A stretch of DNA of 64,000 nt from Boothiomyces macroporosus (Eukaryota > Chytridiomycota > Chytridiomycetes > Rhizophydiales > Terramycetaceae): contig JADGKB010000027.1 of NCBI GenBank assembly GCA_027604185.1, forward strand, positions 62,001 to 126,000. Reading direction: 5' to 3'. The notes under the pieces were generated by a model that saw only the letters and a list, made by a program, of their open reading frames with translations, was not told where the DNA came from and did no database searches. Position numbers and translations under genes: made by a program. This document shows, in pieces, positions 1 through 64,000 of this stretch; the first letter of the stretch is position 1; the number at the start of each line of letters is the position of its first letter.

Positions 1-1
1 T

Positions 2-1177
2 GAAACGTTTGACCATGTATATCTCCAAGAGCAGCAGAGAATAAATCATTTTCGAAACCACTACGAAGTACGTGGTTTTAATACTAGCTGACAAGAAAAG
101 ATTTGCTCGTTAAAAATGTCAAACGCATGATTAAAACGGTGGAAAAAGAATATGGGAAACAAGAAGCCCAAAAGTTTGAATTTATATCTACTTCTTATGT
201 TCTTCCACAGGAGCATGCCCTCTTTCAGGAAGAATTCAAAAGGACACCTGGAGGGATTTGGATAATGAAGCCGGTCGGTAAAGCACAAGGAAAGGGGATA
301 TTCCTAATCAACAAAATGAGTCAGATTTCCAGCTGGAAAAAAGACCCAAGGATTAAAGGAAAGGGAGATGATGAAAGTCCAGAAGCTTACATTGTACAGA
401 GGTACATTGAAAATCCGTACTTGATTGGAGGCAAGCCATAATTAACAAAGGCAAAAAGTTTGATATCAGAGCATATGTATTAGTCACATCGTATTATCCT
501 CTAGTAGTTTACATACACCGAAACGGATTCTGCAGATTTTCAAACTCTCAATTTTCAATGAACGTTAAAGATATTTCAAACATGTATATTCATGCGACAA
601 ATGTTGCCATCCAAAAACATAATCCTAATTATGACGGCGACAAGGGATGCAAATGGTTACTAAGAAATTTAAAGACTTTTTTGGTAACCAAACACGGGAC
701 AAAAAAGATTGACGAGCTGTTTACAGAAATGGAAGCCTTAGTGGTGCGTAGCCTAATGAGTGTGCAAAAAGTAATGATCAATGACAAGCATTGCTTTGAG
801 CTTTACGGATACGATATTTTAATTGATGATAATTTGAAACCGTGAGTTGTATTGACGATAGATGGCTACTGGAAGTGAATGCGTCGCCATCATTGAGCGC
901 AGAAACACAATTTGACTATGACTTAAAGTATGCAATGCTCAATGACGCATTCAATGTGGTAGATTTAGAAAGAAAGTAAATATCGCATAATGCTAGATAC
1001 CAGGACAAGAATAAGTTGCGAACCAGAGTAGGCGGGTTTGATCTCGTTTATAATGATGGGCCGGTGAAGCATGAAAGGACGAGCAGCTATTCATCCTATC
1101 TTGGATGCTACCAACCTATTCCTAGGGCTCCCAGAGTAAAGAAGCGATTTGCTGCCAGAGAAAGGGCAAATAACTAA
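2..1177 (+). CDS. TTLL9: Tubulin polyglutamylase TTLL9-like (5' end cut by window)
   Basis: Tubulin-tyrosine-ligase-like ATP-grasp enzyme that adds glutamate chains to tubulin, typically in cilia and basal bodies. The exons join to 364 codons and match animal TTLL9 closely: [14 protein letters not shown] at the start, [18 protein letters not shown] (ATP-binding lysines), [46 protein letters not shown] (metal/ATP site) and the family tail [13 protein letters not shown]. Introns are at 68-87, 431-450 (GC-AG), 842-861 and 976-996, that is 20, 20, 20 and 21 nt. The N-terminus lies upstream of the window. Presence of this gene argues for a flagellated life stage; another TTLL class is possible but TTLL9 fits best. 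Confidence 0.93.
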
Positions 1178-1253
1178 TAAAATACAATAGTGTTTCACTT
1201 TATGCGGCGCAAAACTTTTTGACCTCAACAAATTTTTCGCACAAGTTATCGAG

Positions 1254-1448: not shown

Positions 1449-1459
1449 ATTCTGTTATA

Positions 1460-2778: not shown

Positions 2779-2795
2779 GTTGCGCTTAATTAAAG

Positions 2796-3319: not shown

Positions 3320-3481
3320 TGAAACGGAAAGCTTCACGTCCTCGCATAATTTCAAGGAACCGAAAGCGAGCCCGTCAATTCTGTCTGGATACCATATCAA
3401 AACAAAAATTTCTTCTTTTGGAACCCAAACGCTTTGTCCTACTGTTTGAGACTTGTCCAGAAAGAGATTGAAATATTTTTC

Positions 3482-4096
3482 ATGTCGCTTGTAAATCTTG
3501 TTAATGTTGAAATTCTGAATAATCCAAGTGGTTATTTCGACAATTTTCAATTTGAAATCACTTTTGAAGTTCTCTCTGAATTACAAGAAGGTAAGCGGTG
3601 GTAACCGTAGATCTGGAATTTAAAGTTATTTATGTTGGCTCAGCAGAAAGCACAAACAATGATCAAGTGCTAGAGTCAGTAATGGTGGGACCAGGTATTT
3701 CATATGTAATCGTAGTTCCTGTTGGAGTCAGCAAATTCGTTTTAGAAGCACCAGCTCCAAAGGTGGAGCTAATTCCAGAATCTGATATCGTTGGTCTAAC
3801 GGTAATATCTAATTTATATAGGTCATGCTGTTGAGTTGCTTCTATAGAGACAAGGAATTTATCAGAGTTGGTTACTATGTCAATAACGATTATGTGGACC
3901 CAGAGTTGAGAGAAAATCCACCTAGTTCACCAGATTTCAGTAAGCTGTGTCGAAGTATTCTCGCTGAAAAACCAAGAGTAGCTTGTTCTCATATTAGGTA
4001 ACTAGGTTCCCAATCCCATGGGATAATTTGGAGGAGAAACAAGAAGAAAAAGTGCAAGACCAAGACATGTCCGAAGTAATGAATATTGAAGTCTAA
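3482..4096 (+). CDS. ASF1: Histone chaperone ASF1
   Basis: A 184-aa H3-H4 chaperone that hands histones to CAF-1 or HIRA in chromatin assembly. Exons 3482-3590, 3611-3801, 3822-3978 and 3999-4096; all three introns are exactly 20 nt. The immunoglobulin-like ASF1 core is clear: VEILNNPSGYFDNFQFEITF, DLEFKVIYVGSAES, DQVLESVMVGP, DIVGLTVMLLSC, FIRVGYYVNNDYVDPELREN and VTRFPIPWDN. The conserved acidic and VGP loop residues that contact H3 are present. After the core there is only a short acidic tail (about 24 residues, EEKQEEKVQDQD), much shorter than in budding yeast. Start at the ATG giving MSLVNLVNVEIL. Confidence 0.96.
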
Positions 4097-5858: not shown

Positions 5859-7276
5859 ATGGAAAATGACATTCTGGCCACAGTTATAGAATATTGTAAA
5901 AACTTGGGGGGAAAAGAAAAAGAGTTGCTTTTACAAGAAACGATATCATTGGATAAAGTTTCCGGTCAGAACCATTTGCAGGAGTTGCTCCGACAGGCAT
6001 CTACGATGGATACCCTGTATTTGAATGAAAAACTGAATCCAAAGTATCTGGGAGTCTTAAAGATCATTTTAAAAGAAAGCAACTCCCTGGAGCGATTGAT
6101 TATCGACGGGTCATTTAATTCATTCAAACTAATAGAGTTCATTTTCACTAATTGTAAGATGCTGGCTGTATTCGATATTATCAGTATTCATGCGCTAATT
6201 TAGATCTAAGCGGACATCCTACCTTTGGAATTTGTGGGATTAATTGGGGTTTAGGGACAATGGTGAAATTAGAAATTCATGCTTGTGAACTTCACCAAAT
6301 GTACGATGGCAAAAGTGCTTTTCATGTGCTATGCAATGGATTAAAGGGAAATGAATACATATCAGAACTGTGCATTACTCACTGCTTTTTATCAGATGTT
6401 CATTGCAACGATATGGTGGAACTACTGTCCACCACCAAATGCGTTTCTGCATTGGTAATATATGGAAACAATTTCCAAGCTGAATCGGTAAAAGCTATAT
6501 GTAGCGCAATTCAATATTCAAATACAATCAGAAAACTCGATCTTTCACAAAAGCACATGGACACCCAAAGCCTCGCTTATTTATTTAAATTTGTAGAAGA
6601 ATATCAGAATTTAGAAGGGCTGGCACTATTTGAAGTGAACATTGAAGACGAAGCAATGGAATTACTTGTGTCAATGTTGGAAAAGTGTAAACTGACATCT
6701 TTGAACTGCTTAGGCTCAAAAGCATCCATCAATGGATTTCATTTACTCACACAAACGATTGCTCGCCATGATTACTTGGAAGAGGTAGATTTAACGGACA
6801 TCGATACAGGTGACGACTACCTCCAATGTAAATACGTTGGGGAAATGATTAGAACAAACAAGACAATATACAAGCTGGTATTTGAAAACTTTGACACTCT
6901 CTACATTGACGAAATCATCAATGGCTTGAAAGAAAATTATTATTTAAGCGGAATCAATCAAGAAGACGAAGACAATGAGGATATTTACTTGATAAAATAT
7001 ACAGAAAGAAACAAGATGATTCAAAACAAGGCAGCATTGGATTTCATTCGTGCAGCAAGAGGTTTAATAATCACACCTATTCCAAATGATCTGAAACTGT
7101 TCATTTGCAATTATTTAGCTGTTGCATGTATGATTCCGAAATCTAAACAAAAACTGCTCGTTTCAACGCTACTCAGTGTTGGGTCGATAGGGTTGTTAGT
7201 TGGTGAAGAAGAGTTTTCTAGAGAATTGTTGTTTGAGGCTTGCGCAAGGTATCAGAACGAGATCAAACAAGTGTAA
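5859..7276 (+). CDS. Leucine-rich-repeat (RNI-like) protein
   Basis: A 465-aa two-exon gene with one 20-nt intron at 6184-6203. The chain carries ribonuclease-inhibitor-type LRR units, for example YISELCITHCFLSDVHCNDM, IRKLDLSQKHMDTQSLAYL, YQNLEGLALFEVNIEDEAM and YLEEVDLTDIDTGDDYLQ, each with the L..L.L pattern and a following helix. The C-terminal third is not LRR and has a hydrophobic patch (KLFICNYLAVACMI, LLSVGSIGLL) of unclear role. No F-box or kinase is seen. The family is too general to assign a function. The start is the ATG of MENDILATVIEY; an earlier in-frame codon is TTG. The 3' end is 26 bp from the convergent dynein gene. Confidence 0.8.
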
Positions 7277-7302: not shown

Positions 7303-9056
7303 TTAGGCGTTTTGGTATTCTCTAATGATTTTAACAAAATTTTGAGTATCGTCTGGTTTAGGTTTGATCAGCTAAGATTAGTGATATTTTACATGTCCAA
7401 CTTCGTAAATTTGGATACTGCCGTCTAAAGACCCACATGCAACTTTGTTTCCCAGCTTATCCCATGCCAGTTTGTTGTATCCACGTTCACTAGGTGACTG
7501 AATTGATGAGATTGGAATTTCGGAATTGATCAAGTTGAATAGATCCAAATTCCCTGAGCCGTCTACGCTTGCAAAAACTGATGGATGGGTTGGGCACCAT
7601 TTTACATCTGCGATAAAGTCCCTAGATTCTTCAAATGATTTGATTGGCTTTATAGTAGATGATGATTTGTACTGTTGCGTATTCCACAGCTTTATGGTCC
7701 AATCAAACGAGCTTGATAAAATTAGATTCTGAAAATCTGGATGCATAGACGGATGGGGATCTAAAGCACTTACACTGCTCTTATGGTCTTCGTATGATAC
7801 ATTTGAATCAATTCCAGCTTTGATTCCAGCTCTTTCGAACCTATTTACTTGATAAATGTTTCCCTTTTCGGAGCCAACATACAAAACTGAGGTTTCTGAA
7901 TTCAAGAAAGCGTGGCAAGTAACTGATACATCATCTGCCATGTTTATGTCTGGCGATAAAGTGATTTCAATCAATTCTTGAGGGTTGGCCAATGTATCCA
8001 ATTGCCAAGTACAAATAACTCCATCTGTTGATATGGAAACCAAATTATGAGCGTTTTGTGTCCCAACTATCGACATTGAATATACAGGATGAGAATGTCC
8101 AGGAGAGGATAACGATGTTGATAAAACTGGTGTATTCTTTGCTCTTGTGTCCCATATTAATACTTGGCCAGAGTAAGTTCCTCCTATTACCAAAGAAGGA
8201 TGAAATGGAGAGAATTTGGCGGTGGTTACATCCGACTAAGTTAGAAATGGTTACTTGTGCATGCAAAATGAATTCAGGTCGTTCTGAAAGGTGCATATTC
8301 CATACTAATACCAAACCATCAGATTCATTAATATTGGTAACGTTCTTGTTGTAAGATCCTAGACATAGTTCAGGGAAAAGAGTTGACCAATCCAAGTCAG
8401 TTACCTGTCTATTTCTAGTCCACCGGTCATGCTGAAATTGTTTGTAGAGCTTGATTCCTGAAATATTCTTTTCCTGAGATATTCCCTGGGTGTAATCAAT
8501 TAAAAAGTCGTACTCCTCTTCCAATGCACGCTCCATAATCTTGGACGACTTTTCGAAAAACTCTGTAAATTCCACTGAATTGAGAAGGTTCAATTTCTCT
8601 GTTTCCGTCAATTCTGCAACTGGGCTTAAAACATCCTCTTGAGCTGGGATTTCTACTTGCACTTTTTCAGTAATAAGTTCCTTGGCCTCAGCAGCGACAG
8701 GGATATCGTCCGTTTGCATTTCTTTCGAGTACATTACTCTTTCCTCTGGTAGAAAGTCAAATACGCCAATGCTTTCGATTGACAATTCCCTTGTTATTTG
8801 CACTGGTTTTGGTTGCGGTTCTTCTGGGAAGAGTTGCTCACTGCTGTCTCTCAGACTGTTGAAGGATTTCCATTCTTCCCCAGGAGGGCCAATCAATGAA
8901 TTTACCAAATCTTCTACTTCTTTTCCAGTGATCTCGTTAGTAACTAATTACTGATGCGAATGAAGTCGCTGATTCCGATCGCATTAATTTCGCCTGTTTC
9001 AACTGGAGGAGCCTCTCTCTCTTCTTTTCAATTTCCTTTTTCCTTTCGCTTTCCAT
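7303..9056 (-). CDS. DYNC1I: Cytoplasmic dynein 1 intermediate chain
   Basis: A 564-aa WD40 subunit that links dynein heavy chain to light chains and dynactin. Exons 9056-8952, 8932-8255, 8235-7393 and 7371-7303; introns 19, 19 and 21 nt. The N-terminal charged helix (MESERKKEIEKKRERLLQLK) is the p150Glued/NudE-binding region, followed by a light-chain-binding segment around YSKEMQTDDI (LC8/Tctex-type KxMQT site). The C-terminal half has WD repeats with strong identity to animal DYNC1I: LVIGGTYSGQVLIWDTR, HPVYSMSIVGTQNAHNLVSI, SSSFDWTIKLW, VKWCPTHPSVFASVDGSG. It is the cytoplasmic and not an axonemal intermediate chain. Its ATG lies 25 bp from that of CstF64 on the other strand. Confidence 0.95.
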
Positions 9057-9081: not shown

Positions 9082-9888
9082 ATGTCAAGTAAATCTGGGA
9101 GTAAATCGGTATTCGTTGGGAATATCCCTTACGACATGACTGAGACGCAACTCAGTGAAATCTTTTCAGAAGTTGGACAAGTGTTGGATATGCGATTCGT
9201 GTTTGACAAAGAAACAGGAAGACCAAAAGGGTTTGGATTTTGTACATTTCAAGATGCAGAAACAGCAGCAAGTGCTATCAGAAACCTAAACAAGTACGCC
9301 ATCAATGGTAGAGAGCTGAAGGTTGCTTATGCGGACAAGGATAACGATGCCCCAGTACAGAAGGAAGAAACCATGGATGTTCTTGGAGTTATTAAATCCA
9401 TCTCACCAATGGAGATAACAGCGATACTTGCTAATTTGAAAGGAATGATACAGAAAGATCCTAACCAGGCGACTGCCCTTCTCGCTTCAGATCCACCTTT
9501 GGCTTTTGCTGTATTCCAAGCACTCCTAACTATGAACCTTGTAGACCAACAATCAAAGCAAGTACTATGTTTATTAATTGCAGAAAATATTACAGTCAAA
9601 GTTCCACACGAACAGCACATACCAACCTCCAATTCAGCAAATGCCTCCTCCAGCCATGCAACCACCAATGGTTTCCATGCAGCCAGTAGGCATGCCTTAT
9701 GGACAAGTGCATCCAATGCAAGCTCAGCAAGTGCAGGATCAGCAAAAGGTAACTCTTTGTTAAGTAAGCAATTATTGTTACAAATCGTCAATCTAACGCC
9801 AGAGCAAATACAGGCATTCCCTCCAGAGGAAAGGCACAAGATATTGCAATTACGAGCGCAGCTACTCGGTGGTGCAGCTCCTCAATAA
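9082..9888 (+). CDS. CSTF2: Cleavage stimulation factor 64 kDa subunit (CstF64/Rna15)
   Basis: A 254-aa pre-mRNA 3'-end processing factor that binds GU/U-rich downstream elements. Exons 9082-9561, 9584-9748, 9769-9888; introns 22 and 20 nt. One N-terminal RRM (SVFVGNIPYDMTETQLSEIF, RNP1 PKGFGFCTF), the hinge that binds CstF77/symplekin (VDQQSK region), a short M/P/Q-rich linker (PPPAMQPPMVSMQPVGMPYG) and the small C-terminal three-helix domain (IVNLTPEQIQAFPPEERHKI). An in-frame ATG at 9055 overlaps the dynein start on the other strand; 9082 is preferred. The two introns together total 42 nt, so a transcript keeping both is still open. The stop overlaps AATAAA. Confidence 0.95.
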   Translation: MSSKSGSKSVFVGNIPYDMTETQLSEIFSEVGQVLDMRFVFDKETGRPKGFGFCTFQDAETAASAIRNLNKYAINGRELKVAYADKDNDAPVQKEETMDVLGVIKSISPMEITAILANLKGMIQKDPNQATALLASDPPLAFAVFQALLTMNLVDQQSKQVLCLLIAENITVKVPHEQHIPTSNSANASSSHATTNGFHAASRHALWTSASNASSASAGSAKGNSLLSKQLLLQIVNLTPEQIQAFPPEERHKILQLRAQLLGGAAPQ

Positions 9889-9996: not shown

Positions 9997-12387
9997 ATGG
10001 AGTTTTTGTTTGGCAAAGCGGAAAAAGTAGCTCCAGATGCTTCATCGACTATCGACAAGCTATGTGACAGGGTAAGGGATTCCACTCTATTGGAAGATCG
10101 CCGTAGTGCAGTTCAAGGATTGCGGGGACTGGCTAGAGATTGGCAGGTGGTAATTCACTCGTAATATTAGCAAGTTGGGACTAAAGGAATGCCGGCATTA
10201 ACCACTGTATTACAAAATGATCGCATGGATGTTGAAATAATTAAACTCACATTGGAGACTTTGAATATACTTTGTTCCAACAATGGAGAAGATGAAATGG
10301 GGAAAACTTTGACAGAGATATTCGTAAAGGACCCACAGAATATCTCGCTGCTACTGGATATTCTAGCAGAGGTAGATTTCTATGTTCGATTCAATTGCGT
10401 TCAGCTCATTACCACTCTCTTTAACAATGTTGGAAACGCTTTACACGAGGGAATATTGACCAGTCCTCTAGGAATTTCCAGATTGATTGATTTGCTGGAT
10501 GATCGTCGTGAAATTATCCGAAATGGCAAGATTCGTGTTAACTGTAGATGGATTATTGCTCTTGATATCCCTCACAGCCAACAATGCAGATATTCAGAAA
10601 ATTGTTGCGTTCGAGAATGCCTTTGAAAGGCTATTCTCAATCATCTTTGACGAAGGATCGATAGAGGGGGATATTATTGTACAGGACTGCTTGCAATTGA
10701 TGCACAATCTGTTGAAGCACAATGCTTCCAATCAGAACCTCTTTAGGGAAACCAGTTGTATCAAAATGATTCCAAGGTTGCTGATGTACAAAGATGCTAA
10801 TGGCCAAGCGTACAGTATCGCACAAAGCAGAGAGGAGCTATCTGAACAGAAAATTGCCAATATTACGTCAGTGTTGGACTTGATACGTATATTAGTCGAA
10901 GGAAATAACCAAAATACCACCATCAATCAGAATTTGTTTGGACAATCTAACATGGTTGCAACTTTGTTTGAACTTGGAATGACAACACATATGCCTTTAA
11001 ACATTCGTATCCAAGCACTTTTGGCAGTTGGAGATGTTATTAAACTCCATGAAATTAACCGTGACCGATTTTCAAGATGCAGCGTAAAAATGTCTATACA
11101 AGCGGAACACTCTGGATTGCCAAATCAAAAACCTCCACCAGGAACGTTAACTCAAAGTGCAATGGCTCTTGTCCAAACAGCGATGGAAAAGAATCCGTTT
11201 GGCTTAAGAAGTGCTGCGACTTATGCTTTTAGATGTTTTATCGAAGATAACATGGAAGGACAAATTGCAATATCTACTTCCTTGAAACCTGCAAGCAACT
11301 CTGAAACGGGTAGTTTAATTATTTCCAATTTGCTTGATCTAACAACTGCAAGGAAAGATCCTTGGGTCGTATGGTTTGCTTCCAATATGCTTTTACACTC
11401 ATTACATAGAAATTTACATTCGCAAGACCTTGCATTGTCTGTCATATTCCAAGAGCATGGAGGTTATTTGCATTAACAATAGAAAGCATTTCACTGATCC
11501 ACAAAGTTTGTTACACACTTTTATGTGCAGGAAGAGACAATTTAGATGCAAAAGTTCAAATTGCATTACTTTCGTTACTGGCAGTTTGGTTGTTTGAAAA
11601 TACCAAAGTTGTAAAAGAATTTTTGTCGGAAGGATCAAACATTCAATACGTAAACAATATTAATTTAGTTGGTTGAACAAATTAATCATGCCTCTGGCAT
11701 AGACCCAGTCGTTCAAGGTTTAGCTGCTTTTCTGTATGGATTGGTATTTGAATTCAATGACGACAGCGAATCAGCTTTTACAAGGTTTGCATTCAGTTAA
11801 CCATAGAGCAAATCTCCAAAATGTCGTCAGTAGCCGTATTGGTGTTGACATATTTTTATCAAAAGTCCAGAGACTGAAGGAATCAAAATATTATTTATCA
11901 AAAGACGACGACTTTGAAAATCCATTTGACCCTGTATTCCTGGAATTCTTAAAGACTCACCTGGATCAAATTACAAGATCGGTAACAGTCTACAAGGCGC
12001 GGGTGGCATCCAGCAAGCCAAAACCTACTGGTATTGAGCAATTAACCAAGAAAATGGAATCGACAATCAAAACAAACTCAACACGTTGGCAAAGTCATTG
12101 CAAGATAGAGATGCGGAAATTGCTTTGCTACGTAAAGAGTTGGAACAGCTGAAATACGTAAAGAGATCTCCAGTAATCTTTTCTAACCATAGTCACCACA
12201 GCCAGCACAAACAGGGCGAGAAATAGAGCTATTGAGACAGCAGTTGATGGAAAAAGATGAAAAAGTAAAAGAAATCGAGGCAGAGCAAGAAGACTTACTC
12301 CTCTGTTTGGCAGACCAGGAGATTGAGATTCAAAACTTGAAAGAACGGCTAAAAAAGTATGGTGAAGTCTTTGAAGATGACGAATAA
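9997..12387 (+). CDS. USO1: Golgi vesicle tethering factor p115/Uso1
   Basis: A 748-aa tether that docks COPII vesicles at the ER-Golgi. Eight exons; introns at 10150-10170, 10526-10547 (GC-AG), 11463-11482, 11650-11668, 11785-11806, 12031-12050 and 12173-12192. The armadillo-repeat globular head is conserved: EDRRSAVQGLRGLARDW, then IVAFENAFERLFSII and QDCLQLMHNLLKHNASNQN, as in human p115. The C-terminus is a coiled coil ending in the family motif LLLCLADQEIEIQNLKERLK and an acidic tail EDDE, but the coil is short, so the protein is smaller than human p115 (about 960 aa) and far smaller than yeast Uso1. Confidence 0.95.
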
Positions 12388-15850: not shown

Positions 15851-16062
15851 GTTTGTTTTAATATAGCGCGTGTCTGAAGCTCCGATTGAGGCGGACTGAC
15901 AATAACCACTATGCATGATAGCGACTAGCGAGTAAATTTATCTTATTGCGTGTCCATGCGCATACATTTTAATCTGGGATATTAAAACTGTCACCAAATT
16001 AAAAACCAAATTTTTCCTTTTTCGATGGACGAGTAACCTCCGTTAATAATAGAAAGTTAGGG

Positions 16063-16379
16063 TCAAAGAGACCGCATACTCCCAGTAAACAAAAGTAAAT
16101 TCGTTATAACAAAGGCAAATACCATTGGCGGCGGGAATCGTCCATTCAATCCACATAAGCAATTCGTATGGATGTTTGGTGTATAATACCAATCCGCATC
16201 CCGAAGGATCAAAGCAGGCAGTACTTGAGTTTAATGTAGATGGAATATGATGATGCACAGCAGAAATATGTAGAGAATGAATTGAAAAACGCACAGTCGT
16301 TTGGAGCAAGTTGGATAGTTGCCCCCAAAGCCAGCATAGGAAATGCTATTATACCAGTAATGCCAAGGAAATAAAACAT
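16063..16379 (-). CDS. Tentative small secreted/membrane protein
   Basis: An ATG at 16379, only 3 bp past the Mis12 stop, opens a signal-like sequence MFYFLGITGIIAFPMLALGA followed by a cysteine-containing stretch. The frame closes unless a 35-nt intron (16224-16258) is removed; this gives 93 aa with a second hydrophobic segment near the end (PPMVFAFVITNLLLFTG). That intron is longer than all others here, so the model is doubtful. No family is recognised. It may instead be a short single-exon protein or noncoding. Confidence 0.3.
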
Positions 16380-19536: not shown

Positions 19537-21498
<1,962 letters not shown>

Positions 21499-52469: not shown

Positions 52470-54084
52470 ATGATTATCGCACTTGCTGTCGCGCTAGTTG
52501 GTGGCATTACTTTTGAAAGTGTTTGGCAAGAGAGAGACTGTGCAGGCTCCCCACAGTCAATGGCAATTTACGATGAAACGGTGGTGATGGATTCACTAGC
52601 AATACTTTCATCTTCAGACTACGTACCTCCTGTTTGCGGTTACTCTCCAGTTGCTATAAATGCTGGATGCTGCGCGTCAACATGGAAGCCTGAACTTACA
52701 GGAGGGTTTCAGAGTTGGTATGAACAGCTCGTTCCTTCTATGGATACGATATACGCTCCAGTCTCATCAAATGGGTATTCTTACTGCGCATTGTATGCTT
52801 TAGATGCGAACTCACTCTACCAGTATAAATCAATGTACACTTTGGCAAACGGTAAATGCACCATTGATGGAATCAAATGTTCACCAAAAGGGTTAGTTAC
52901 TATCTACACAGATAGCACTTGTCAAACCGTTTCAATGCAGTACCAGTTAGCGAGCTTGGCGGTATTACCTCAAAGCGTATTAGGTAATGTTACTGGAGAG
53001 TTTTTGACAATAACGAATGGAACTCAGACATTTACTTGGGTGGCCTACTCTCCAGAAATCTATTCTGTTCCCTCTACATATGCATACCTTCTCCCTTTTG
53101 AATACTTTTCCTTCACTCTCAATTATCTGGCAATGGTTTTCTCCCTTCTAAAGTGTTTCGCGATGTTATGGAGTACATTCGCGTTAGAACAACAAAAACA
53201 CTTTTAAGAATCATCAATATGGTGCTATGGTTTGTATGGGTAGTTTGCTGCTACGCATGGTATACGGTTCTATTTGAAAACAACCTTCAATGGGAAATTT
53301 TGGCAGAAATTCAATGGTTAAGCTTCAATCTTGCGACGTTTATGACATCAGCCAATACGGCAGTATTCTTTTTGGATATCAAAAGATGGTCTTCAACCCG
53401 AAATATCACAATATTTCTTTCATCCATATTCATCTATCAACTAGTTTTCGCCGGGTCCAACTACTTGGCATACTTTAAATATCAGCCAGATACTGAAGGG
53501 TTCTTTGCGTATTGGAGTTATTTTACACCAGTTTGGGTAATCCATTACTAACCTAGATCATCTCTGTTTATTTTTTCGATACAGTTCCTCAATTGGTTCT
53601 TGTGGCAACCTTAGTTCGAAATCAACAATTGCGATCAAAAGGAAGCTCCTTTCCTCTTACTTTGCTTAAATTTCTTCAATCAAATATCGCCTATACATGT
53701 CTTGTGTTTGTCCATCTTTGCAATATGACAACATTTTTGATAATTACTTACCTTACCACATACAGCCAGCTCTTGGGAAACGACCGAATCTTATTAGCAA
53801 TGGGAGGACCTCTAGTATTTGTAGACGTACTTCATTCTTTGCTCAATGCTTCCATCCTGGGCGAATTAAAGGAAATTATCTCTTCATTGACCAACAATTC
53901 AAAGAAATCAACATTTGCTTCAAGGCTTAAAAGCGCTTTTGTAAACCCAACAATTGCCAAAAGCTCTACTGCGTCCCAATCAATGGCTAGAAGTACTAAA
54001 GAAAGAGATCAAAAATCAAAGATTCAAACCACCTCTAAAGTAGCGAGGCCTTCAGATGTAGGTGAAAAATCACAAAGTGCTTGA
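52470..54084 (+). CDS. Multi-pass membrane protein with secreted cysteine-rich ectodomain
   Basis: A 523-aa protein. A signal peptide (MIIALAVALVGGITFESVW) precedes an ectodomain of about 190 residues with ten or so cysteines (VPPVCGYSP, NAGCCASTW, KCTIDGIKC, STCQTVSMQ). Then about seven hydrophobic helices: NYLAMVFSLLKCFA, MVLWFVWVVCCYAWYTVLF, LATFMTSANTAVFFLDI, ITIFLSSIFIYQLVF, PQLVLVATL, YTCLVFVHLCNMTTFLIITY, LLAMGGPLVFVDVLHSLL. The last 70 residues are a serine/lysine-rich cytoplasmic tail. Introns 53165-53187 (23 nt, less certain) and 53537-53556. Topology looks like a receptor-type 7TM protein, but no known GPCR motif is seen. Confidence 0.75.
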
Positions 54085-54146: not shown

Positions 54147-56057
54147 CTACTTTCTCGAAAGTGTAAGGACTTCCCCAGTAGAAATACCAGACTCAAACAG
54201 AGTTTCGGAATTTTTCAGTGCAAATCCTTGAGAACTAACGAGTTTCTGTTTGCCGGCAGCTATTCCAGAATCCTTTACTAGATTTTTCTTTAATTGCGAT
54301 ATTATAGTGTCAGGTTTTAATTGTTTGAAATTTATCGTATTGCCGTTTGGTAAATTTACAACCAGGTCAACCTACAATTAGAAATAAATTACAGGAACGT
54401 CTTTTGCTGCAGGATCGAGCTTTTGTTTCTTTGGAGGAGGTGGAGCAGGCTGCCCATATGGATATGGCATCCCTGGTACTGGCATACCGAATGGAGGTGG
54501 AGGAAATACTGGAGGGAACACTGGAGGGAATGGCACACCCTTAATAGGAGGCGGTATGATAGGTCCAGCCATTGGAGGTGGAGGGGGCTTTTTAGTTTCC
54601 CCAGACAGCATTTGCGCTTTCGCTGTAGCTGCGGCGACAGATCCTTGTCGGCCATCCCAAATGACTTTAGCTTTTGCAGCTTCTTTGCCTTTTTCCTTTT
54701 CAAAGGCGACTTTCTGGCCAACATCGATTTCACCAGCCGAACCACCAAAAATATCTGTTCTCATGCTGGCCATATTCTTCAAGTTTTGAGCTACAATATC
54801 ACCAGATACAATATTGCCACTGTCTCTGGTTTTTTCATCAAAAGCAGCCTTTTCGTCTTTCCATTTTGGATCAAGCAATTCAAGTCTTACATGCTCCGCC
54901 ATATCAGTAACTTTGACATTTTGCTTACATCTTGGACATATTTGATACGCTTCCTGAGCAGCTGCGTGTCTTCCCACTATCGTAAAGTAATAATTACCTT
55001 TTGGAACATATGTAGTTCTTTCTGGAGCAGAAACGGTTGGCTGAGATGGCTCTTCATCCTCTTCCATATCTACATCTTCATCCATCTACCATTAACAACT
55101 ACTTACCTCCATGTCATCTGGCTCTGCAGTATTTTCAACCCTAGGAGCCTCAAACTTTAACAATGACTTTCTCTGTTCCAAAGTCATACTTTCTAATTCT
55201 TCCACGCTCATTGGAGGAGGAAGAACTGCACGCTCATCAGCTTCCAAAAACTCTATGGTTTCAACAACAACAAAATCATGCCAGTCAATAGTGGCAAAAG
55301 CAACTACATTTAATTTGTTATTACTCTTTTCTTCTTCAGCTTCATGCTGTTTCCTTGCCTTTTCTTGATACTTGTAAGCTTCAAATTCAACCCTTTTCAT
55401 AATGCGATCAATAATTTGCTGTCTATTTGATGAATTTAATTCTAATAATGGAAATATGTGAGGCGGTGGAATCAATACTCTACTATATTGATCTACTAAT
55501 CTTGTAAAATATGGATATAGTGAGTGACTTGGTCTCAAGAAATCAAACTGAAAATTCTTTTGTTCTCGTTGTCCTAAATCTGTCATAAATGAAGCTCCAT
55601 TCCTTGCGACATATTGTGCTGTGAGTTTCAAAATATCCATATCCTGCTTTGTAATTGAAGGTATTTCCACTAAAAATTCATACTGCGGTGGAGGCAAAGG
55701 AATATTCGTCATCACTGGTATATCCTGATGAACCGGTGTTTGTTCAACCACTTTTTCCTCTTTCTTTTCTTGTTTCTGCGGTTTCTCTGCTTCTGAATTT
55801 AGAATGAATTTACCCATTTCCTCTTTTGCTTTCTTTACTTTCCATTGGTAATACGCAAAGTATGGATCGTTGGGAAATAGGAAACAAAACTTTTGATTGT
55901 GAGTCTCTTTTTCACGGAGCTTGTCTTCAAATCCAGGTCCGTTCTTTGCAACATGCACAGCTGTCTTATCGCAAATCACTACAGTTACCATTGAATTACG
56001 CTTGATATCTGGAGGTGGGTAAATGATATTGTCTGGCTCTTCGTCAAGAAAGTCCAT
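54147..56057 (-). CDS. SF3A1: U2 snRNP subunit SF3A1 (Prp21)
   Basis: A 622-aa component of SF3a in the 17S U2 snRNP, needed for branch-site recognition. Exons 56057-55105, 55083-54393 and 54371-54147; introns 21 nt each. Domains in order: SURP1 (DKTAVHVAKNGPGFEDKLRE), SURP2 (LKLTAQYVARNGASFMTDLG with YFTRLVDQYSRVL), the DUF3586/PRP21 core (WHDFVVVETIEFLE, LPPPMSVEELESMTLEQRK), zinc-finger-like YQICPRCKQNVKVTDMAEHV, a proline-rich stretch (PPVFPPVFPPPPFGMPVPG) and a C-terminal ubiquitin-like domain (VDLVVNLPNGNTINFKQLK), which in humans contacts U1 snRNA stem-loop 4. Complete architecture. Confidence 0.97.
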
Positions 56058-56307: not shown

Positions 56308-58878
56308 ATGGCAAAAGTGCAGTGGACATCGGACGAAATACACCAAGTGTACAATGATATATGGGAAGAGAAGCTTGCGTGGTAATTATATAGTAACTGC
56401 AGGGTTGTATTGGGATACGAGGACAAGGAGAAAACTTTGATAGTGTATTTCACGATTTGATGATAGGATCAAAATGACAGGCGTGTCACTTTCAGAATTT
56501 ACAACCACGTTTAAAGAAGATGAAATAAATATGGGATATATGAGGTATAACGGAAGAGCGATATTTGTGCATTACATTCCGGCAAAGGTCGTTGGATCTA
56601 ATGATAGGAGAGCGACCGTGGAAGAGCATATTCGTTGCTACACGCCAAAAAATGCACACAGGTATTAATTGACTCATGCAGCAATTTTTCCCTCTCATTT
56701 CAGCTAAAATTACGCTAGAGTCCCTACAGCAATTTGATGCGAACTTTGTAAAGGACACTTTGGCAGGGTGTGAGCCTTTGAAGGGCAAGAAGACTGCAGC
56801 AGATGTGCGATTCACAATTATGGCTACCAATCAAGGATTAAATGAACTACTGAACATGTCTGATTCAAATCAGGAATTCGCACAGCTAATGGAAAAGAAA
56901 GAACAGCAAAAGCAATCAGCACAAAGTAGCGAGCAGTTACAAAACAAGCCAAGGGAAATTTCCACATCGGTAGTCAAGGAAAGGGATAATTCAGCATCAG
57001 TAGTTGCATCTCCCGAAAGAACTTCTGTACGGACAGACATTCCAGGTTCCGCACGCGACAGTAATACAAATACAAGCATGAGGGAGAGCGAATCAAAAAT
57101 AAAAGAAAAGACAAAGAAATCGCCCAAAACTGATCTTCCGTCAGTCAAAATACCAAATTTCCAGGCAATGTCAAAGGGATCACTTTCCAGCAAATCATCT
57201 GCAAATAATTCTTCAGAGAAAATGAATTCAGCACAAAGCGATGTGGACGATAAAGACGATCACAAATCAATGCAGATGTTTTGGGACGGAATGAAGAATA
57301 AACTTGCAATGGAACAATCCCCAACGGATACAAACAGACTAAAAACGTTTGTCACTAAATCAGCAGCACATGCACAAAACATTTTTGGAAGATCTAGCTC
57401 TTCTGAATCTTTGAAAGGGTCGAAGGCGGCCAACGCAGTAATCGCTCAGCACAAGCAAAAACAAACTGCAGTAGTTCCAAATGAATTAATTAAATTCCCA
57501 AAAGCAAGTCCCTTGAATGCGCTTTCAAAAGGAGGGAGCGCTCAAAGTTTACCAAATATGATTGAAATATCTGTCGAGCCACCATCGCCAAGCAAAGACC
57601 CTAAAGTAGCCCCAATTGTATTCAACAATGATCAAGTGCGTCTTCGAAGACACTCGGCTGACAAGCAAATGATATTAAAAAGTGAAGAACTGCCAAAGCC
57701 CAAACCAACTGTCAAAGCTATGCCATTTAAATCTAATAGAACCATTGGTAAATCACTTGAAGACATAAACATTGATGATTTACTAATGACTCCCCCAACT
57801 GCAGATTTTCCTGATGAAAACGTCCCAGAAAAGGAACCTCCGATTTCACCGAACCTTCGCAGAACTAAAACAGAATCTGGCAAGAAATCCAAAGAACAAT
57901 TTTATTTCAGAGATCCAAAAAAGCTCCCGGATTTACCAACAAAAAATATTGCAATTATAATGCAAAACAACCCAGTTCCAAATGTAAACAGACAATTCGA
58001 AAAGAAACCCCAATCCAACTTTGATCTCGACCCCAATGAAGAGTCACTGGAGTCGAAACCTACAATAACGAAAAGCCTGATGTCGTCCAAAACAGTAACC
58101 GCTTCCACCTCTAAAGAAAAACTTTCAAGCAAGGAAGAGGTAGCATCAAGGGATCGAATCAAAGAGAAAAATAATCTTTCGACTGAAAGTATTTCAAATC
58201 GTCCACCCAAAAGCGATTCAGCATCCCAAGATCCTATTCCTGAATCCCGTTCAGGTTTAAATTCGAAATCCAATTCAATGGAAAACCTAAAAACGGTGCC
58301 ATCTAGAGAAAGATTGAATTTGAGCAACACCAATTTAACAGGAAAATCAACCAACGAGTCTCCTAAAGATGAACTTAGAAGAACTCCTACGGTGCCAAAA
58401 AACCCAGATGTTGTATTTAATATCCACAAAGGCGGCCAGTTAGTAATTGACGGCTAATCTTAGAGGAGCAAGAGTGAAATTACAAGCCCATCGTCAACGC
58501 CCTCTCCTATGGAAGTCGATAAATTAAAAACTGTAAAAAGTGTAAGAATTAAATCTAAGATAGCGACAAATTCAACTACATGAACAATGGGTTCAGTATC
58601 AAGCTCCCAATGCTGAAACTGTGGAAAAGAGATGGATTCGACTCCAAAAGGGATGCCTTACCCTCTTTCTGAATGACAAAGAGGTACTGTTCAATTAACT
58701 ATAGGTATCGCCGCTGCTGCATATCTCGTTAGATCAGCCATCTGATGTTGTTGATTGCGCATACGGCAAATATCCCGGAATCTGCCTTCAAGCTCCGGAA
58801 GGATCATACAGATTCTACAGCACTGACGAAAAAAACTCCCTCAAAAGAATCATGATACTAGCCAAGAAATGGGCTTGA
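56308..58878 (+). CDS. ADF-homology + PH-domain actin-associated protein (possible frame problem)
   Basis: Six exons would give about 790 aa. Exons 1-3 (56308-56381, 56403-56444, 56467-56661) encode an ADF/cofilin-type fold (WVVLGYEDKEKTLIV, MGYMRYNGRAIFVHYIPAKV, HIRCYTPKNAH). Exon 4 (from about 56682) starts KITLESLQQFDANFVKDTLA, the last ADF helix, then a very long serine/lysine-rich disordered linker. The last exons (58464-58541, 58564-58683, 58705-58878) make a PH domain (YQAPNAETVEKRWIRLQKGC, CAYGKYPGICLQAPEGSYRF, MILAKKW). The join at 56661 is wrong by one base: a canonical 20-nt intron (56662-56681) leaves the frame out, so either a 1-nt error in a T run or a non-AG acceptor. Coactosin/drebrin-like actin regulator by inference. 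Confidence 0.75.
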
Positions 58879-59016: not shown

Positions 59017-60120
59017 ATGAATTACGAAAATTTCATTTTGAAGAACGCACAGCATGTACAAAGCGTCGAAGCCTCCCTTCGAACTCTATCTTATTTCTTA
59101 CCTGGTAAACGGCTTCTAATTCAGGACGATTCGATAATTCTGAAATCCTTTCAGAATTTCTGTATTCAGGAACCAAATTGGTTGGATTATACCATGATTC
59201 AATTCTTGAAGTCGAAGCGCAGAAGCAGCAGCCAAAAGGTGCCAGCTCATTCAACAGATATAACAAGGGATTGTTAAAGAAAGCTAGAGTCATTTGCTGG
59301 GTGTTGACTGTAGTCAGGTCGTTTGAAACCACTGCAGAAATGGTTAGTTCCAGACTCAGCAAGGCGTTTCAGGAGAAGTTTGTCCTGGTAATTGAAATCA
59401 TAAAGTAATCACAATTTAATTATAGGGCTGCACTGCGATTGGCTCTGTTCAAAATATCGGGAAATAGAATGATTATGCACACTGTGCTGCCAGAAAGAGA
59501 CTATGACTTGGCTAAATTAGAGCCTGGAGTGGAAGCGGGATCTTGGAAAGCTGAAAGGACAAAGAAAGAGCATTTATCAGTGGATGCCTTGACAAAGGAT
59601 AACGCAGATTTTAATCCAGCAATGCAATATTTATTGTCGAAAGCCATGATTGAGCCATCGCTTGATCCACTAGAGCTGTTACCTCAATTATCTGGATTCA
59701 AGCAGGTCACAGAATATGTTTATATTTTCAGACCACTAATCTATGGTACCTTTAAAATAATGTAGTATTATGCATTCGTAAATGGGGGACCCACTCTTTT
59801 AAACCTTGGGTCATTTCAATCTTGCTGGAATTGTTCTCATTTACATCCCGATTTGACTTTGAAACCAGACACTGGTCCAAGGATTTAACACAGTTGGAAA
59901 AGTCAGAAATGAGATATAGAGTGTCTCTGTTGAGATATTATCTTCTTCGTAATCCAGTATACGAAATGTTCTCAAAGTATTTGTTTTTAACTGTAGACCA
60001 AGAATTCAAGGAATAATAGATTGGACCATCACCAAACCTCTTCTTAGCATCATTGGCAGCGTTCTCAATGATTACACTCCACTGTGGGAAAACTATCACT
60101 TTTATACGTCCAGCTTCTAG
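59017..60120 (+). CDS. PEX16: Peroxisomal membrane biogenesis protein PEX16
   Basis: A 340-aa peroxin that helps insert peroxisomal membrane proteins and recruit PEX3. Five exons; introns 59105-59124, 59405-59425, 59747-59766 and 59977-59996. Matches to animal PEX16: VQSVEASLRTLSYFLPG, GRFDNSEILSEFLYSGTKLV, FIR-like LIYVLCIRKWGTHSFKPWVI, RYRVSLLRYYLLRNPVYEMF (human [20 protein letters not shown]) and the end ITKPLLSIIGSVLNDYTPLW with ENYHFYTSSF. Only the last intron restores this final conserved block; without it the protein would stop early. Confidence 0.93.
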
Positions 60121-60164
60121 AGTCCAGTTCATTGTGTTTCAATAAATCAGTTGCAGTTTATTCG

Positions 60165-61712
60165 TTATAATGCAATAATAAGGAACAAGCACAACAAAAA
60201 GAACAGGGATAAACCAGCGACATAATAGTATTGTGAAGGTACTTTGGTTAGCAACAACTTACCCAAAAAGGTAACAATTAAACCAGAAGAGATGGCATAT
60301 AATACAACCAAGTATTTCAGATACTTGTTCCTCCTGAATATCCTGAAAGGCTCTTCATCTGCCATCAAGAAAGATAGATTAGCAAGAGTTGGATGTTGCT
60401 GCATAATATCATTCTCATCATGGTTTGCAATTTGTTGTGTAAGGATTGTAAACAGCTCTGAATCTCCTGTTTCCAACGCATTCTGTTTGAAATATTGTCG
60501 TATAGATGAATGCATCAAAAAGTCATCGTCAGAAGCATAGTAGAATGCTTCATAAAACTTTTTCTCGTGGATGGAAGGTGGGTTTGATTTCTTTGCAGTT
60601 CTTTTAACCGGACTGGTGCTTATCTGAATTGATGTTGTGTTTGACATTACTTGCTCGTTAGGAGATTTCTTTGTACGGTGCGCAATCCAATCATCAACTG
60701 TCATTGAGCCTCTTCGTTCATTGGAAAATGCCACTGACCGGATATTTCTATGTCTCTTCATACTTGTATCTATTGGAGGTGGTTTCTTGGTAATTGATAG
60801 TGGCCTTAGCGAAGGTTTTTGTTCAGCAAAAGCATCGTCAAATGAATTTCTTCTTTCAGTTACGTCTGAATGCTTTGGAACTGTAACATATTCTTTTCTG
60901 TCTTGGAGTTCGATATCGGATTCAAAGGCTTCTTTTTTGATAATGAACTTCATTGGCCCTGTGCTTCCGTTTTTAAAAGACATCAAGGAAAGGAGGTTTG
61001 GCTTTTCTTGATGGGCCAAATTGTTCCGGATACATTGAGATCTTTTTGCATTAATTGGATCAGGCTCAGGTATAATTAGGTTGACTAAAGCTTCAAATGG
61101 CGACTTGGGTTTATGTTCTTCCTTTTTGACAGGTACCGGCTTGATTACATAGTAATGAACATCACCGACGATTGTCATATTGTTTAACGGCTAGGTTAGT
61201 CACTTGTACATTTTTGGCTTTCATTCGATGCAGGAGACCTTCTTCAGGCTGCGTCCGGAACAAGACCTTGTTGATATGGTGTGCCGCATAGTAAGAGTAA
61301 TAAAATCTATCAGGATCATCTGGGTCGACAGTTGTGACTCGAGCCAGGATGAAATCTAAATCCTTTTCCGAGTGCAATTCAATCAATGATTTTAAGCTCT
61401 CTAACGTAAATGGATCTTCATTTTCCGCGTCAAGAACATCAACCAACAATGTTGGTTCAGGAGAAGGCTCGACTTCTTTATTTGGGCCAACTCTGTCATC
61501 TAGTCTTAATCTTGTATACCTGAACACCCTGGTGGTTTGCCATATATTTTGACGTATATATCAGGTTGTTCCGTATCTTTGACAGAGATTTTTATTGGTG
61601 CTGGTTTAGGAGGTACATCCTTTGTTAAAACTTGTGGTGAGGGCAAAACATTTATAGTCTGGTGAGATGGCTTTTCTATATCCAGTTCTGGAACTGTAGA
61701 GTAATTAGGCAT
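60165..61712 (-). CDS. Uncharacterised protein with two C-terminal membrane helices
   Basis: A 502-aa protein. Exons 61712-61520, 61499-61210, 61190-60165; introns 20 and 19 nt. A proline-rich N-terminus, then a conserved-looking globular part (SLIELHSEKDLDFILARVTT, DRFYYSYYAAHHINKVLFR, NNMTIVGDVHYYVIKP), a disordered basic middle (RRNSFDDAFAEQKPSLRPLS), a helical part (SDDDFLMHSSIRQYFKQNAL) and two membrane helices at the end (KYLVVLYAISSGLIVTFLGK; YYVAGLSLFFLLCLFLII) forming a hairpin, typical of ER or outer-organelle tail-inserted proteins. I do not recognise the family. It is a tail-to-head neighbour of the sorting nexin (54 bp). Confidence 0.75.
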
Positions 61713-61766
61713 AAAAATTATAGGGTGGAAACTCACAGTTATCCACGGGTAGAACGAGAACAACTT

Positions 61767-64000
61767 TTATTTTGGGAATAGTGCAAGCAGAATTTCATCA
61801 ACTATTTTGTACATCAAATGCTGGTTTAATCGGGGATTTTGGAATAGAAGATGCCATCTACTTGCTCCTCTACGCGCATTCTGTCTCCCAACCATTCCCC
61901 CAAATAATTCTGGAAAGAGAATGCTGATTTTTTGAGATGTATCGGTCATGGTAGCAATTCTCTGACTTTGAGTGCGAACAGTGAATGACTCTGTCAATTT
62001 ACCGTTTGGCCAATACGTTTCTCTAATTGAAATCATCATTGATAAAATTCTTTCTTGAGATAGAGTGTCTCGAATAGCTTCAGTCGCCTTTCTTTCAACA
62101 GTGTCACCAAAGAGTTGCTGCAAAAAGATCACCACTGCTTGTCTGCGAAGTCCTTTTAATTCAAACAATTCAATAAACAAATCTACCAATGGTTCAGCAT
62201 TTGAACTTTGGCTGTCACTTGCCAAACTATCACTCAAGTCCAATTTTTTGTCCATGACGGTGGGATCAAAGCCTTGAGGATTAGAAGGTGATTTGGCTCT
62301 CCTCAAGAGGATCGTGTCCATGGTATCATCTACTGTATGGTATACGGTTTGCAAAAACGATTTTTTCACCTGCAGTTCTGTCTTGTCATCAAAGAACTTT
62401 ACAATGTCTGGATGACAAATGAACTTTCTAAAGGTAATAGATGTGCATATTTCAACATGTTTCAAAAGATTCTACAGTGAAAACAATGTTACGGTGAGGT
62501 ATTTTTCAAAAGCCTGTCGCCTACTTTCTAAAACTAGGGTTCTTTTCTTCATAATTCCAGTGAGCAGCTTTCCCGGTAGTTCATAATTTTGCATGATTAC
62601 TGGAAATTTCGCCTTTAGCGCTTGATGAAGAGCTAAAAACTGACTATACCTCCTTGCTACCATCCACCCACTAGTAATACCTTCCGAATTGGTTTTGGAT
62701 ACTTGTATAGGATAAACTGCGTATCCTTTTCCCTCTTGTTCGATGATTTGGCTACCATCAATCTTTACAGTTATACAATCCTAATTTTAAAAATATGTTA
62801 CGGGCATGATAATATTTTCTATTTGAGATTTTTCTATACTTTGTTTTTCTGTTTCAAGCTCGTTAATCTCATACGAAATTCCTCGCTTGGCGTATTGCAG
62901 TTGCTTGTAAAGCGGAGAGGAAACATCAGTGTCCTTGATTTGCTTTTCTATATCCTCTGCATCTTTTTTCAACTTTTGGATATTCATTTCCACTTCGAAA
63001 TACTTTGCAGGCAAAATGATCATTGGAGGAAGACTTTCATTAGGAATTGACAGTGTAAGGTTTTCATCCAAAGATGCGGGAGTGTTGTCTTCCATTTCCA
63101 GTTGTATAAAGCTATCAGCATCAGTTTCTAAAGGTGGTTTTGATTCCATCATCAGTGACGAATTTTTTAAATCTTCATTGGATGCAGCCAGCTCACCACT
63201 CGACCCGAGCTGATTGTCACTTAGATTATCTTTCGATCGAGTAACAGCAGCTTTTCCATCATGGGATTTGGGCCTCATTCTAGAAAAGAATGAGGTCTTC
63301 TCGCCTTGAAGGTCTTCAACAGATTTACTGTTACCATCACGGGGTAGGTCTCTTTCGAATGCTTTTGAAAAGTCGGAAAAGAAACTTGATGGTCGCTGTT
63401 TCTTTTTCTTGACCATATCATCATTGAATATTATGTTTTGCAGTTCTTGCTCTACAACTTCTGATTGAGCTCTTGGATGAAGTGAAACTCTTGGTTCTTC
63501 TGAGCGGCCGACTCTTGAAATCCTTTTAATTGTTGATTTAAAGAATTGTTCATATAATCCAATGCCTTTCTTCTTTTGCGGATCAATATCATAGTCATCA
63601 ATATCGGCTTGTCTATCAAATTCAACAGATAATCTTTCTGGAGATTTACCCTTCTTTTTCAATGATGAGCATTTTGCCAGGAGCTTTTTCCCATGACTAC
63701 TCTTCATAAAGGCGGGAAAATGTTCAACATTCATGATGGACATGATTTCGTATACTGCTACAAGACAAGCCTTTAATCCATCTCTTGTAACTTCTGGCGG
63801 AATCGAATTAAACGGATCATATTGATCCCTATAATTTAATGTAGCTATATATTTTTCAATCGATTCAAACACTGTCTTTGATAGAAATTTGGAAATACTA
63901 GATGCTGAATCATACACCAAGTATTTTTCCCACAGAGTTCTAATTTCAATGGCAACAGTTAGCCAGTCCCACTCTGAATCTAAAGTTTCAAAGCTGTCAT
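61767..64000 (-). CDS. Sorting nexin of the SNX13/14/25-Mdm1 type (5' part outside window)
   Basis: The 3' portion (about 730 codons) of a PXA-RGS-PX-NexinC protein, endosomal or ER-contact-site. From the right edge: RGS domain (WDWLTVAIEIRTLWEKYLVY, PPEVTRDGLKACLVAVYEIM, FPAFMKSSHGKKLL), a long serine-rich linker, a coiled segment (EMNIQKLKKDAEDIEKQIKD), a PX domain (WMVARRYSQFLALHQALKAK with LPGKLLTGIM and the phosphoinositide-contacting arginines) and a C-terminal nexin domain (LIELFELKGLRRQAVVIFLQ, GASRWHLLFQNPRLNQHL). Introns 62781-62801 and 62472-62492, 21 nt each. The N-terminal PXA domain and start codon lie beyond 64000. Confidence 0.9.

Follow-up and report, generated by a model that had tools for sequence, protein, structure and literature searches.

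We analyzed a 64,000-nucleotide (nt) stretch of the genome of Boothiomyces macroporosus (contig JADGKB010000027.1, positions 62,001 to 126,000; hereafter the window), a chytrid of the family Terramycetaceae, order Rhizophydiales, whose members have flagellated zoospores. The window encodes, among others, Prp18 and SF3A1, two kinesin-4 type proteins, a tubulin-tyrosine-ligase (TTL) family protein, Uso1/p115, an aspartokinase and a WD40 protein resembling dynein intermediate chains, and these genes are interrupted by very short predicted introns (Table 1). Our final gene model places 134 introns in the window, 131 of which measure 19 to 25 nt (26 of 19 nt, 58 of 20 nt, 34 of 21 nt, 10 of 22 nt, 2 of 23 nt and 1 of 25 nt); the remaining three calls are 148, 170 and 180 nt long. 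The 25-nt call, at 1166-1190 with a GC donor, is doubtful because it sits where the model fused two genes. These counts agree with the original prediction of about 120 introns, nearly all of 19 to 24 nt, with 20 and 21 nt the commonest lengths. Judged from the DNA, the 19- to 22-nt segments are almost certainly genuine U2-type spliceosomal introns and the sole class detected in coding regions.

The analysis covered 264 kb, namely the window and 20 regions of 10 kb, each taken from another contig of the 15.2-Mb genome. Genes were predicted on both strands using a purpose-built gene finder with a three-periodic order-4 coding model, trained on 91 open reading frames of at least 200 codons, which also screened stops in split codons; the length scans cover coding regions and intron lengths up to 1000 nt. 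In a first pass, intron lengths of 6 to 200 nt were equally likely a priori and the borders required were GT and AG alone. Under this flat prior, 86 of 258 calls fell at 19-24 nt (38 of 20 nt, 23 of 21 nt and 15 of 19 nt), while five pairs of decoy borders gave 17, 4, 10, 10 and 6 (of 213-240). Once donor and acceptor matrices had been learned, still under a flat prior, 324 of 439 calls had this length versus 4-14 (of 113-245) for five letter-permuted matrices, and when lengths up to 1000 nt were allowed with the full matrices the figures were 260 of 386 versus 1-9. No sign of a normal intron class emerged from these runs: GT-AG borders gave 152 calls of 31-200 nt versus 177-217 for the decoys, the learned matrices 108 calls of 25-200 nt versus 101-223 for the permuted ones, and the full matrices 120 calls of 25-1000 nt versus 79-195. 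A further run scored the donor and a 3-nt acceptor without the branch portion of the matrix, so that a long intron whose branch lies far off was not penalized; 200 calls at 19-24 nt were then obtained versus 2-16 for decoys, and 134 at 25-1000 nt versus 141-210. A broad tail of normal introns is thus not seen in coding regions between 25 and 1000 nt. Given that GT or GC and AG are obligatory in the gene finder, the test of the borders lies in the decoy comparison. A crude motif scan produced a weak peak (89 at 19-21 nt versus 32 expected) because its donor pattern required a G at +5.

In the final model, the length prior was learned as well, with 10% kept flat. Of its 479 introns, 455 measure 16-25 nt and 24 measure 63-200 nt; the short ones are distributed as 1 of 16 nt, 4 of 18 nt, 96 of 19 nt, 203 of 20 nt, 110 of 21 nt, 27 of 22 nt, 11 of 23 nt, 1 of 24 nt and 2 of 25 nt; the 18-nt calls include an edge artefact where locus L003 ends. 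Short introns were found in all 21 sampled stretches, with 7 to 32 in every 10-kb region outside the window. They occur at 2.2 per kb of coding sequence; 103 of 128 complete gene models have introns, with a mean of 3.16 per gene. Coding calls cover about 78% of the DNA, and the median exon piece measures 197.5 nt. Over both strands of the whole genome, the strict pattern GTAAT-N6-8-TAAY-N1-2-TAG has 1873 matches, compared to 109 for the reversed pattern and 39 when the donor-branch spacing is extended by 14 nt; within the 264 kb it has 44 matches versus 1 at the long spacing. The short introns are thus genome-wide, as had been proposed, and three controls (decoy borders, permuted matrices, and genome-wide spacing and reversal) exclude chance. 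Scaling by the strict pattern (455 × 1873/44) puts the genome total at about 19,000 introns and scaling by length at about 26,000, both being estimates for an assembly that contains duplicated stretches. Identical intron-like matches were observed in pairs on one contig or on two, at C1:16455 and 18924, C2:279340 and 321936, C48:62284 and 97120, and C49:12726 and C100:14321, as though the assembly contained segmental duplications or haplotypes left uncollapsed.

The introns share a compact layout: a donor of about 6 nt (GTAATT-like), a spacer of 2-3 nt, a 7-nt branch stretch complementary to U2 and centred on YTAAY, and a tail of 5-6 nt to the AG, so that 19-22 nt is scarcely longer than the signals that the splicing machinery must read. 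Donors are GT in 467 of the 479 introns and GC in 11; the sole AT donor arises as an artefact at the edge of L003, the sequence there reading GTAATG...TAG. Among the 455 short introns, A occupies +3 in 91% and +4 in 61%, T occupies +5 in 47% and +6 in 52%, and G occupies +5 in 17%; the commonest first hexamer is GTAATT (69/455). On the exon side, A is found at −3 in 48% and at −2 in 54%, and G at −1 in 47%. A G at +5 is present in 7 of 11 GC donors versus 72 of 444 other introns, an excess expected if donor pairing makes up for a weak second base, and donor pairing seems to be in use. The branch motif Y-T-A-A-Y, whose search was seeded with TACTAAC and which was also learned from introns found by GT and AG alone, has its A in 449 of 455 introns. 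This A is base 14 in 169 introns and base 15 in 204 (together 373/455), and is followed by 5 bases in 200 and by 6 bases in 184 (together 384/455). Acceptors are TAG (300), CAG (100), AAG (51) and GAG (4), and decoy borders give no peak. The GTA/GTR donors, the branch motif close to the acceptor, the AG ends and the donor-to-branch distance of 13-15 nt described from the window were all recovered. We dropped the interpretation of the correlation between the two spacings (−0.66, n=455; −0.53, n=321) as selection on total length, since it stems at least partly from misplaced branch points: of the 321 introns with a single TRAY, the 258 that fall in the four main spacing combinations show independence of the two spacings (Fisher p = 0.26).

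Homology provides a check on a minority of the window genes; the window intron list consists of predictions, a minority of which were checked individually. A junction was examined for an alignment free of gaps over 6 residues on each side against at least one relative, B. macroporosus itself being left out. All 16 junctions of SF3A1 (5) and of the kinesin gene at 43479-47141 (11) are gap-free, the one at 44210-44230 being weak (3/12 residues identical). In the second kinesin gene, the 5 junctions lying in the segment compared, which excluded the sixth, fall in a gap-free KIF4 alignment as judged by eye. When the Prp18 intron at 35312-35332 is excised, the Pfam Prp18 score goes up from 173.4 bits to 183.2 bits, the solved Prp18 structure (1dvk) matches at 70.1 instead of 58.9 bits, and a 7-residue insert in SVGIH disappears. 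In the spliced TTL protein, residues 11-300 match the TTL domain at 285.9 bits, and the Uso1 head scores 199.6 bits over residues 342-628, spanning three junctions. Aspartokinase shows homology along its full length, but small alignment gaps a few residues away make two of its three junctions less telling. The dynein intermediate chain-like protein has WD40 above cut-off and Dynein_IC2 at 23.8 bits, slightly under its cut-off of 25. Gene boundaries are uncertain in so compact a genome, and model 0 joins the TTL gene to a small neighbour.

Matching parts of the splicing machinery are also encoded in the genome. U2 is present in two copies (L024 and L025), above cut-off and with the branch-recognition sequence GTAGTA; U4 is above cut-off, as is U6 (L023, 1501-1606, reverse strand), which contains ACAGAGA. 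The 5′ end of U1 is ordinary (ACTTACCT / ATACTTACCTG), contrary to the altered end that we had expected as the cause of the missing G at +5. Genes for Prp8, Prp18 (in the window), Slu7 and SF1 are present, so that the expected loss of Prp18 or Slu7 is ruled out, and a U2AF65-like gene itself holds a consensus 19-nt intron (C2:122749-122767). None of the components tested points to a pared-down spliceosome. We assign the introns to the U2-type class because of their GT-AG borders, of a branch motif complementary to U2 and of the U1, U2, U4 and U6 genes identified; their donor consensus, GTAATT, differs from the U12 form. Group I and group II introns are long, structured elements of hundreds of nucleotides, and self-splicing of either kind is ruled out by a modal length of 20 nt and by the lack of any Rfam match above cut-off in the window. 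As regards the RNAs themselves, the two U2 copies have diverged, sharing the branch-recognition region and differing in their 3′ half, and U6 reads AUUACAGAGA / AACAUUACAGAGA immediately before its catalytic part. The AUUAC of U6 is complementary, in a shifted register, to the commonest donor start GUAAU, from which we claim no pairing.

Removal of these segments from mRNA by an ordinary spliceosome in the ordinary two steps is what we infer from DNA, and this basis is itself one of several points that weigh against the interpretation. U1 scores 68.8 bits, 0.7 under its cut-off of 69.5; U5 was not found by a genome search, which cannot show absence; and the U2AF65-like gene, at 230.7 bits, lies below the curated cut-off of 310.3. 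In addition, the 264 kb that were scored had also supplied the training data for the coding and splice models, and the length prior of the final model favours short introns, the flat-prior runs being less biased. The most serious alternative, which we nevertheless hold to be improbable, is that the short introns are real and coexist with a normal-sized class missed by a coding-frame gene finder, for instance in untranslated regions or above 1000 nt. The 24 final calls of 63-200 nt could belong to such a class, but their sites are weaker (donor mean 4.0 versus 4.5, acceptor 3.6 versus 4.9), some of them, such as L018 7581-7693, open with an apparent full short intron, and calls of 25-1000 nt stay inside the decoy range both with and without the branch part of the matrix.

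Could the segments instead remain in the RNA, where they would be tolerated as small inserts or bypassed by ribosomes? Public gene models do retain some of them, and nine segments of the window are in frame and stop-free. Most segments, however, measure 19, 20 or 22 nt and would shift the frame, the Prp18 insert interrupts a conserved stretch, and GT and AG borders with a U2-complementary branch motif have no translational role; we consider retention very improbable. Nothing was found in favour of sequencing or assembly errors having split the reading frames, and we rate their probability as negligible: on every contig sampled, the segments have GT-AG borders with a branch motif at fixed spacings, which errors would not produce, and the genome-wide spacing control (1873 versus 39) already contradicts them. 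Spliceosomal removal remains our preferred interpretation.

Deposited proteins carry traces of these introns. The B. macroporosus SF3A1 in public databases is 98% identical over 100% of the length to our rebuilt protein, and differs only by the insert GKFILNS and by one residue replaced by eight, which correspond to two retained 21-nt introns. The deposited gene model is wrong owing to these two retained introns, and given that it splices the other three of five, such introns are already implicit in public annotation and may have been noticed by others without remark. The next-best matches are from Boothiomyces sp. JEL0866 (85% identical), which has GNFKLIS at the site of GKFILNS, and Terramyces sp. 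JEL0728 (82%), which has no insert at any of the five sites. In the kinesin, JEL0866 has the insert QVITRFT at the 46628-46647 site, where a metagenome protein (P0244) has the 6-residue insert QVIAVN, and Terramyces has SIGISDI at another junction; these two 7-residue inserts, both at predicted junctions, are the sole ones longer than 3 residues in the kinesins of the two closest relatives. JEL0866 therefore has a 7-residue insert at a predicted junction twice, in SF3A1 and in the kinesin. The kinesin models of JEL0866, Terramyces and Kappamyces start at a methionine 11 residues past the P-loop intron, while those of Batrachochytrium and Gorgonomyces do not. From these sequences, the inserts of the relatives are probably retained introns; more distant kinesins also have inserts of 3-12 residues off the junctions, some of 7 residues, so that an insert by itself is no proof. 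The 120 kinesin matches listed, for which candidates had to measure between 0.55 and 1.75 times the query, include none from B. macroporosus, which a broken model could explain. For both multi-intron genes under comparison, Boothiomyces or Terramyces entries in the databases thus carry 7-residue inserts or miss first exons at such introns; should this be general, annotation errors will skew genome comparisons among early fungi until gene prediction is repeated with a minimum intron of about 15 nt.

Ultra-short spliceosomal introns are already known as a kind; their setting in an intron-rich fungal nucleus is new to us. In the passages of published accounts on which we draw, introns of the heterotrich ciliate Stentor coeruleus measure 15-16 nt (PMC9505925) and those of mikrocytids 16-17 nt (PMC10245619), so that placing the B. 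macroporosus introns near the physical limit, as originally done, is too strong. Stentor resembles B. macroporosus in the near-single, genome-wide length of its AT-rich GT-AG introns, a 5-nt tail after the branch A, an ordinary U1 (ACUUACCU), a U2 with GUAGUA, and a commonest intron start GUAAUU with a weak +5; it differs in a branch A at position 10 rather than 14-15, in a weak rather than strong branch consensus, and in having introns in 18% of its genes compared to 103 of 128 complete models here (PMC9505925). Mikrocytid introns likewise have a narrow length range and conserved signals, but belong to a parasite with 224 annotated introns and 17-19 identified spliceosome proteins, unlike the thousands of introns found here together with Prp18, Slu7, SF1 and the U2AF65-like gene (PMC10245619). 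The chlorarachniophyte nucleomorph, with more than 800 introns of 18-21 bp, falls in the same length class; it is, however, the relict nucleus of an endosymbiont with about 300 intron-bearing genes, in contrast with a 15.2-Mb nuclear genome (PMC10245619). Other chytrids share the high intron density (mean 3.93 for two chytrids versus 2.2 per kb here), and introns of the short-intron fungus Cryptococcus neoformans average 63 bp as opposed to about 20 nt here, according to the portions cited of Lim et al. 2021, which name no length close to 20 nt (PMC8476143). No report of introns of about 20 nt in a chytrid or other fungus appeared among the open-access matches listed, a scope outside which most subscription papers lie. 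If our interpretation is true, ultra-short introns would extend beyond ciliates, one group of parasites and a relict nucleus to a full-sized, intron-rich fungal genome that keeps its second-step factors, and minimal donor-branch-acceptor spacing would become testable in an opisthokont spliceosome, a kind with many solved structures.

Structures of the spliceosome suggest that U1 and U2 can hardly sit together on such an intron, which calls for either sequential binding or recognition across exons. Twenty nucleotides could scarcely hold U1 on the donor beside U2/SF3b on the branch; U1 might be replaced by U6 no later than the docking of U2, an exchange that poor pairing of U1 at +5, with T rather than G, would ease. 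We regard such a hand-over, helped by the weak +5, as rather unlikely, and the share of introns with G at +5, which is 0.17, 0.19, 0.14, 0.26 and 0.27 at 19 to 23 nt, has no clear trend with length and speaks against it. One lower bound may apply both to this 5-6-nt tail and to the 5-nt tail of Stentor, the loop differing between the two. In yeast, Prp18 and Slu7 are dispensable for tails in this range, and their retention although nearly every tail is this short would imply a role other than bridging long ones. A broader scenario, which we put forward tentatively and rate somewhat below even, is that the whole intron population of an intron-rich fungal nucleus was squeezed to two independent rulers (13-14 nt from donor to branch and 5-6 nt from branch to end) while most introns and the tested factors were kept; the G at +5 would have been largely lost because U1 and U2 cannot co-occupy 20 nt, and Prp18 and Slu7 would do something besides bridging long tails.

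Table 1. Genes and predicted introns of the window (positions count from the first base of the window; + and − denote the strand)
Feature	Coordinates	Strand	Remarks
SF3A1 gene (U2 small nuclear ribonucleoprotein SF3a subunit 1)	54147-56057	−	5 introns, all 21 nt; 5/5 junctions gap-free vs at least one chytrid orthologue
SF3A1 21-nt intron, stop-free	55793-55813	−	kept as insert GKFILNS in deposited model
SF3A1 21-nt intron, stop-free	55304-55324	−	7 extra residues in deposited model; 5/5 orthologues aligned gap-free
SF3A1 21-nt intron	55086-55106	−	final model, junction test
SF3A1 21-nt intron, stop-free	54977-54997	−	final model, junction test
SF3A1 21-nt intron	54372-54392	−	final model, junction test
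Prp18 gene (second-step splicing factor)	34459-35493	+	introns 34474-34494 (GC-AG), 35312-35332
Prp18 21-nt intron, stop-free, in frame	35312-35332	+	within conserved Prp18 domain
Kinesin-4 type gene	43479-47141	−	11 introns of 19-21 nt; 11/11 junctions gap-free
Kinesin-4 type 20-nt intron	46628-46647	−	at EIYQE(Q)/IRDLL; two relatives with 6-7-residue insert here
Kinesin-4 type 20-nt intron, P-loop region	46826-46845	−	models of three relatives start at Met 11 residues downstream
Second kinesin-4 type gene	47187-48704	−	introns 47391-47409, 47669-47688, 47746-47764, 48220-48239, 48421-48439, 48655-48674
TTL family 20-nt GC-AG intron	431-450	+	gene model
TTL family 20-nt GT-AG intron	842-861	+	same gene as 431-450; at KP/WLLEVN
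Uso1/p115 gene	9997-12387	+	7 introns of 19-22 nt
Aspartokinase gene	19981-21498	+	introns 20145-20164, 20460-20480, 21249-21267
WD40 / dynein intermediate chain-like gene	7303-9056	−	introns of 21, 19, 19 nt
Short introns 1	68-87+, 431-450+, 842-861+, 976-996+, 1166-1190+, 1317-1337+, 1535-1554−, 1877-1895−, 2029-2048−, 2254-2273−, 2572-2590−, 2785-2804−		1166-1190 doubtful
Short introns 2	3591-3610+, 3695-3715+, 3802-3821+, 3978-3997+, 6184-6203+, 7372-7392−, 8236-8254−, 8933-8951−, 9562-9583+, 9749-9768+		
Short introns 3	10150-10170+, 10526-10547+, 11463-11482+, 11650-11668+, 11785-11806+, 12031-12050+, 12173-12192+, 13566-13586+, 13768-13789+, 13890-13909+, 14101-14123+, 14402-14421+		
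Short introns 4	16033-16052+, 16095-16114+, 16221-16239+, 16794-16813−, 16895-16913−, 17037-17056−, 17300-17319−, 17736-17755−, 18575-18594−, 18696-18718−, 19239-19258−, 19346-19365−		
Short introns 5	20145-20164+, 20460-20480+, 21249-21267+, 22508-22528−, 23016-23035+, 23117-23135+, 23248-23266+, 23921-23939+, 23993-24013+, 24105-24124+, 24716-24735+, 24826-24845+		
Short introns 6	28010-28029−, 28827-28845−, 29264-29284+, 29327-29347+, 29409-29430+, 29735-29756+, 30088-30107+, 31747-31765+, 32240-32258+, 32427-32446+, 32543-32562+, 32855-32875−		
Short introns 7	33116-33136−, 33661-33679+, 33775-33794+, 34474-34494+, 35312-35332+, 38133-38151−, 38440-38460−, 38772-38791−, 38954-38975−, 39028-39048−, 39272-39291−, 39391-39410−, 39697-39717−		
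Short introns 8	39794-39815+, 40078-40098+, 40225-40244+, 40469-40489+, 41074-41093+, 43938-43957−, 44210-44230−, 44554-44572−, 44775-44794−, 45345-45364−, 45735-45753−, 46092-46110−		
Short introns 9	46483-46502−, 46628-46647−, 46826-46845−, 47082-47102−, 47391-47409−, 47669-47688−, 47746-47764−, 48220-48239−, 48421-48439−, 48655-48674−, 49860-49878−, 50000-50018−, 50593-50612−, 50724-50742−		
Short introns 10	53537-53556+, 54372-54392−, 54977-54997−, 55086-55106−, 55304-55324−, 55793-55813−, 56382-56402+, 56445-56466+, 56588-56607+, 56662-56681+, 58443-58463+, 58542-58563+, 58684-58704+		
Short introns 11	59105-59124+, 59405-59425+, 59746-59765+, 59977-59996+, 60242-60262−, 61191-61209−, 61500-61519−, 62472-62492−, 62781-62801−		

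In the 264-kb sample, an in-frame stop is present in 76 of 95 introns of 21 nt compared to 145 of 254 introns of 19-20 nt. Paramecium has a similar stop excess. Selection could account for it, but so could biased detection, since stop-free in-frame introns may escape the gene finder, and we make no claim of selection. No related copy turned up when prokaryote genomes were scanned. The window also contains two intronless ammonium transporter genes, at 36409-37824 (+) and 41469-42920 (−), which lie 3.6 kb apart and are about 72% identical. A metagenome contig of 193,165 bases appears to carry two such ammonium transporters together with a kinesin-4 relative, and this gene neighbourhood may be conserved.

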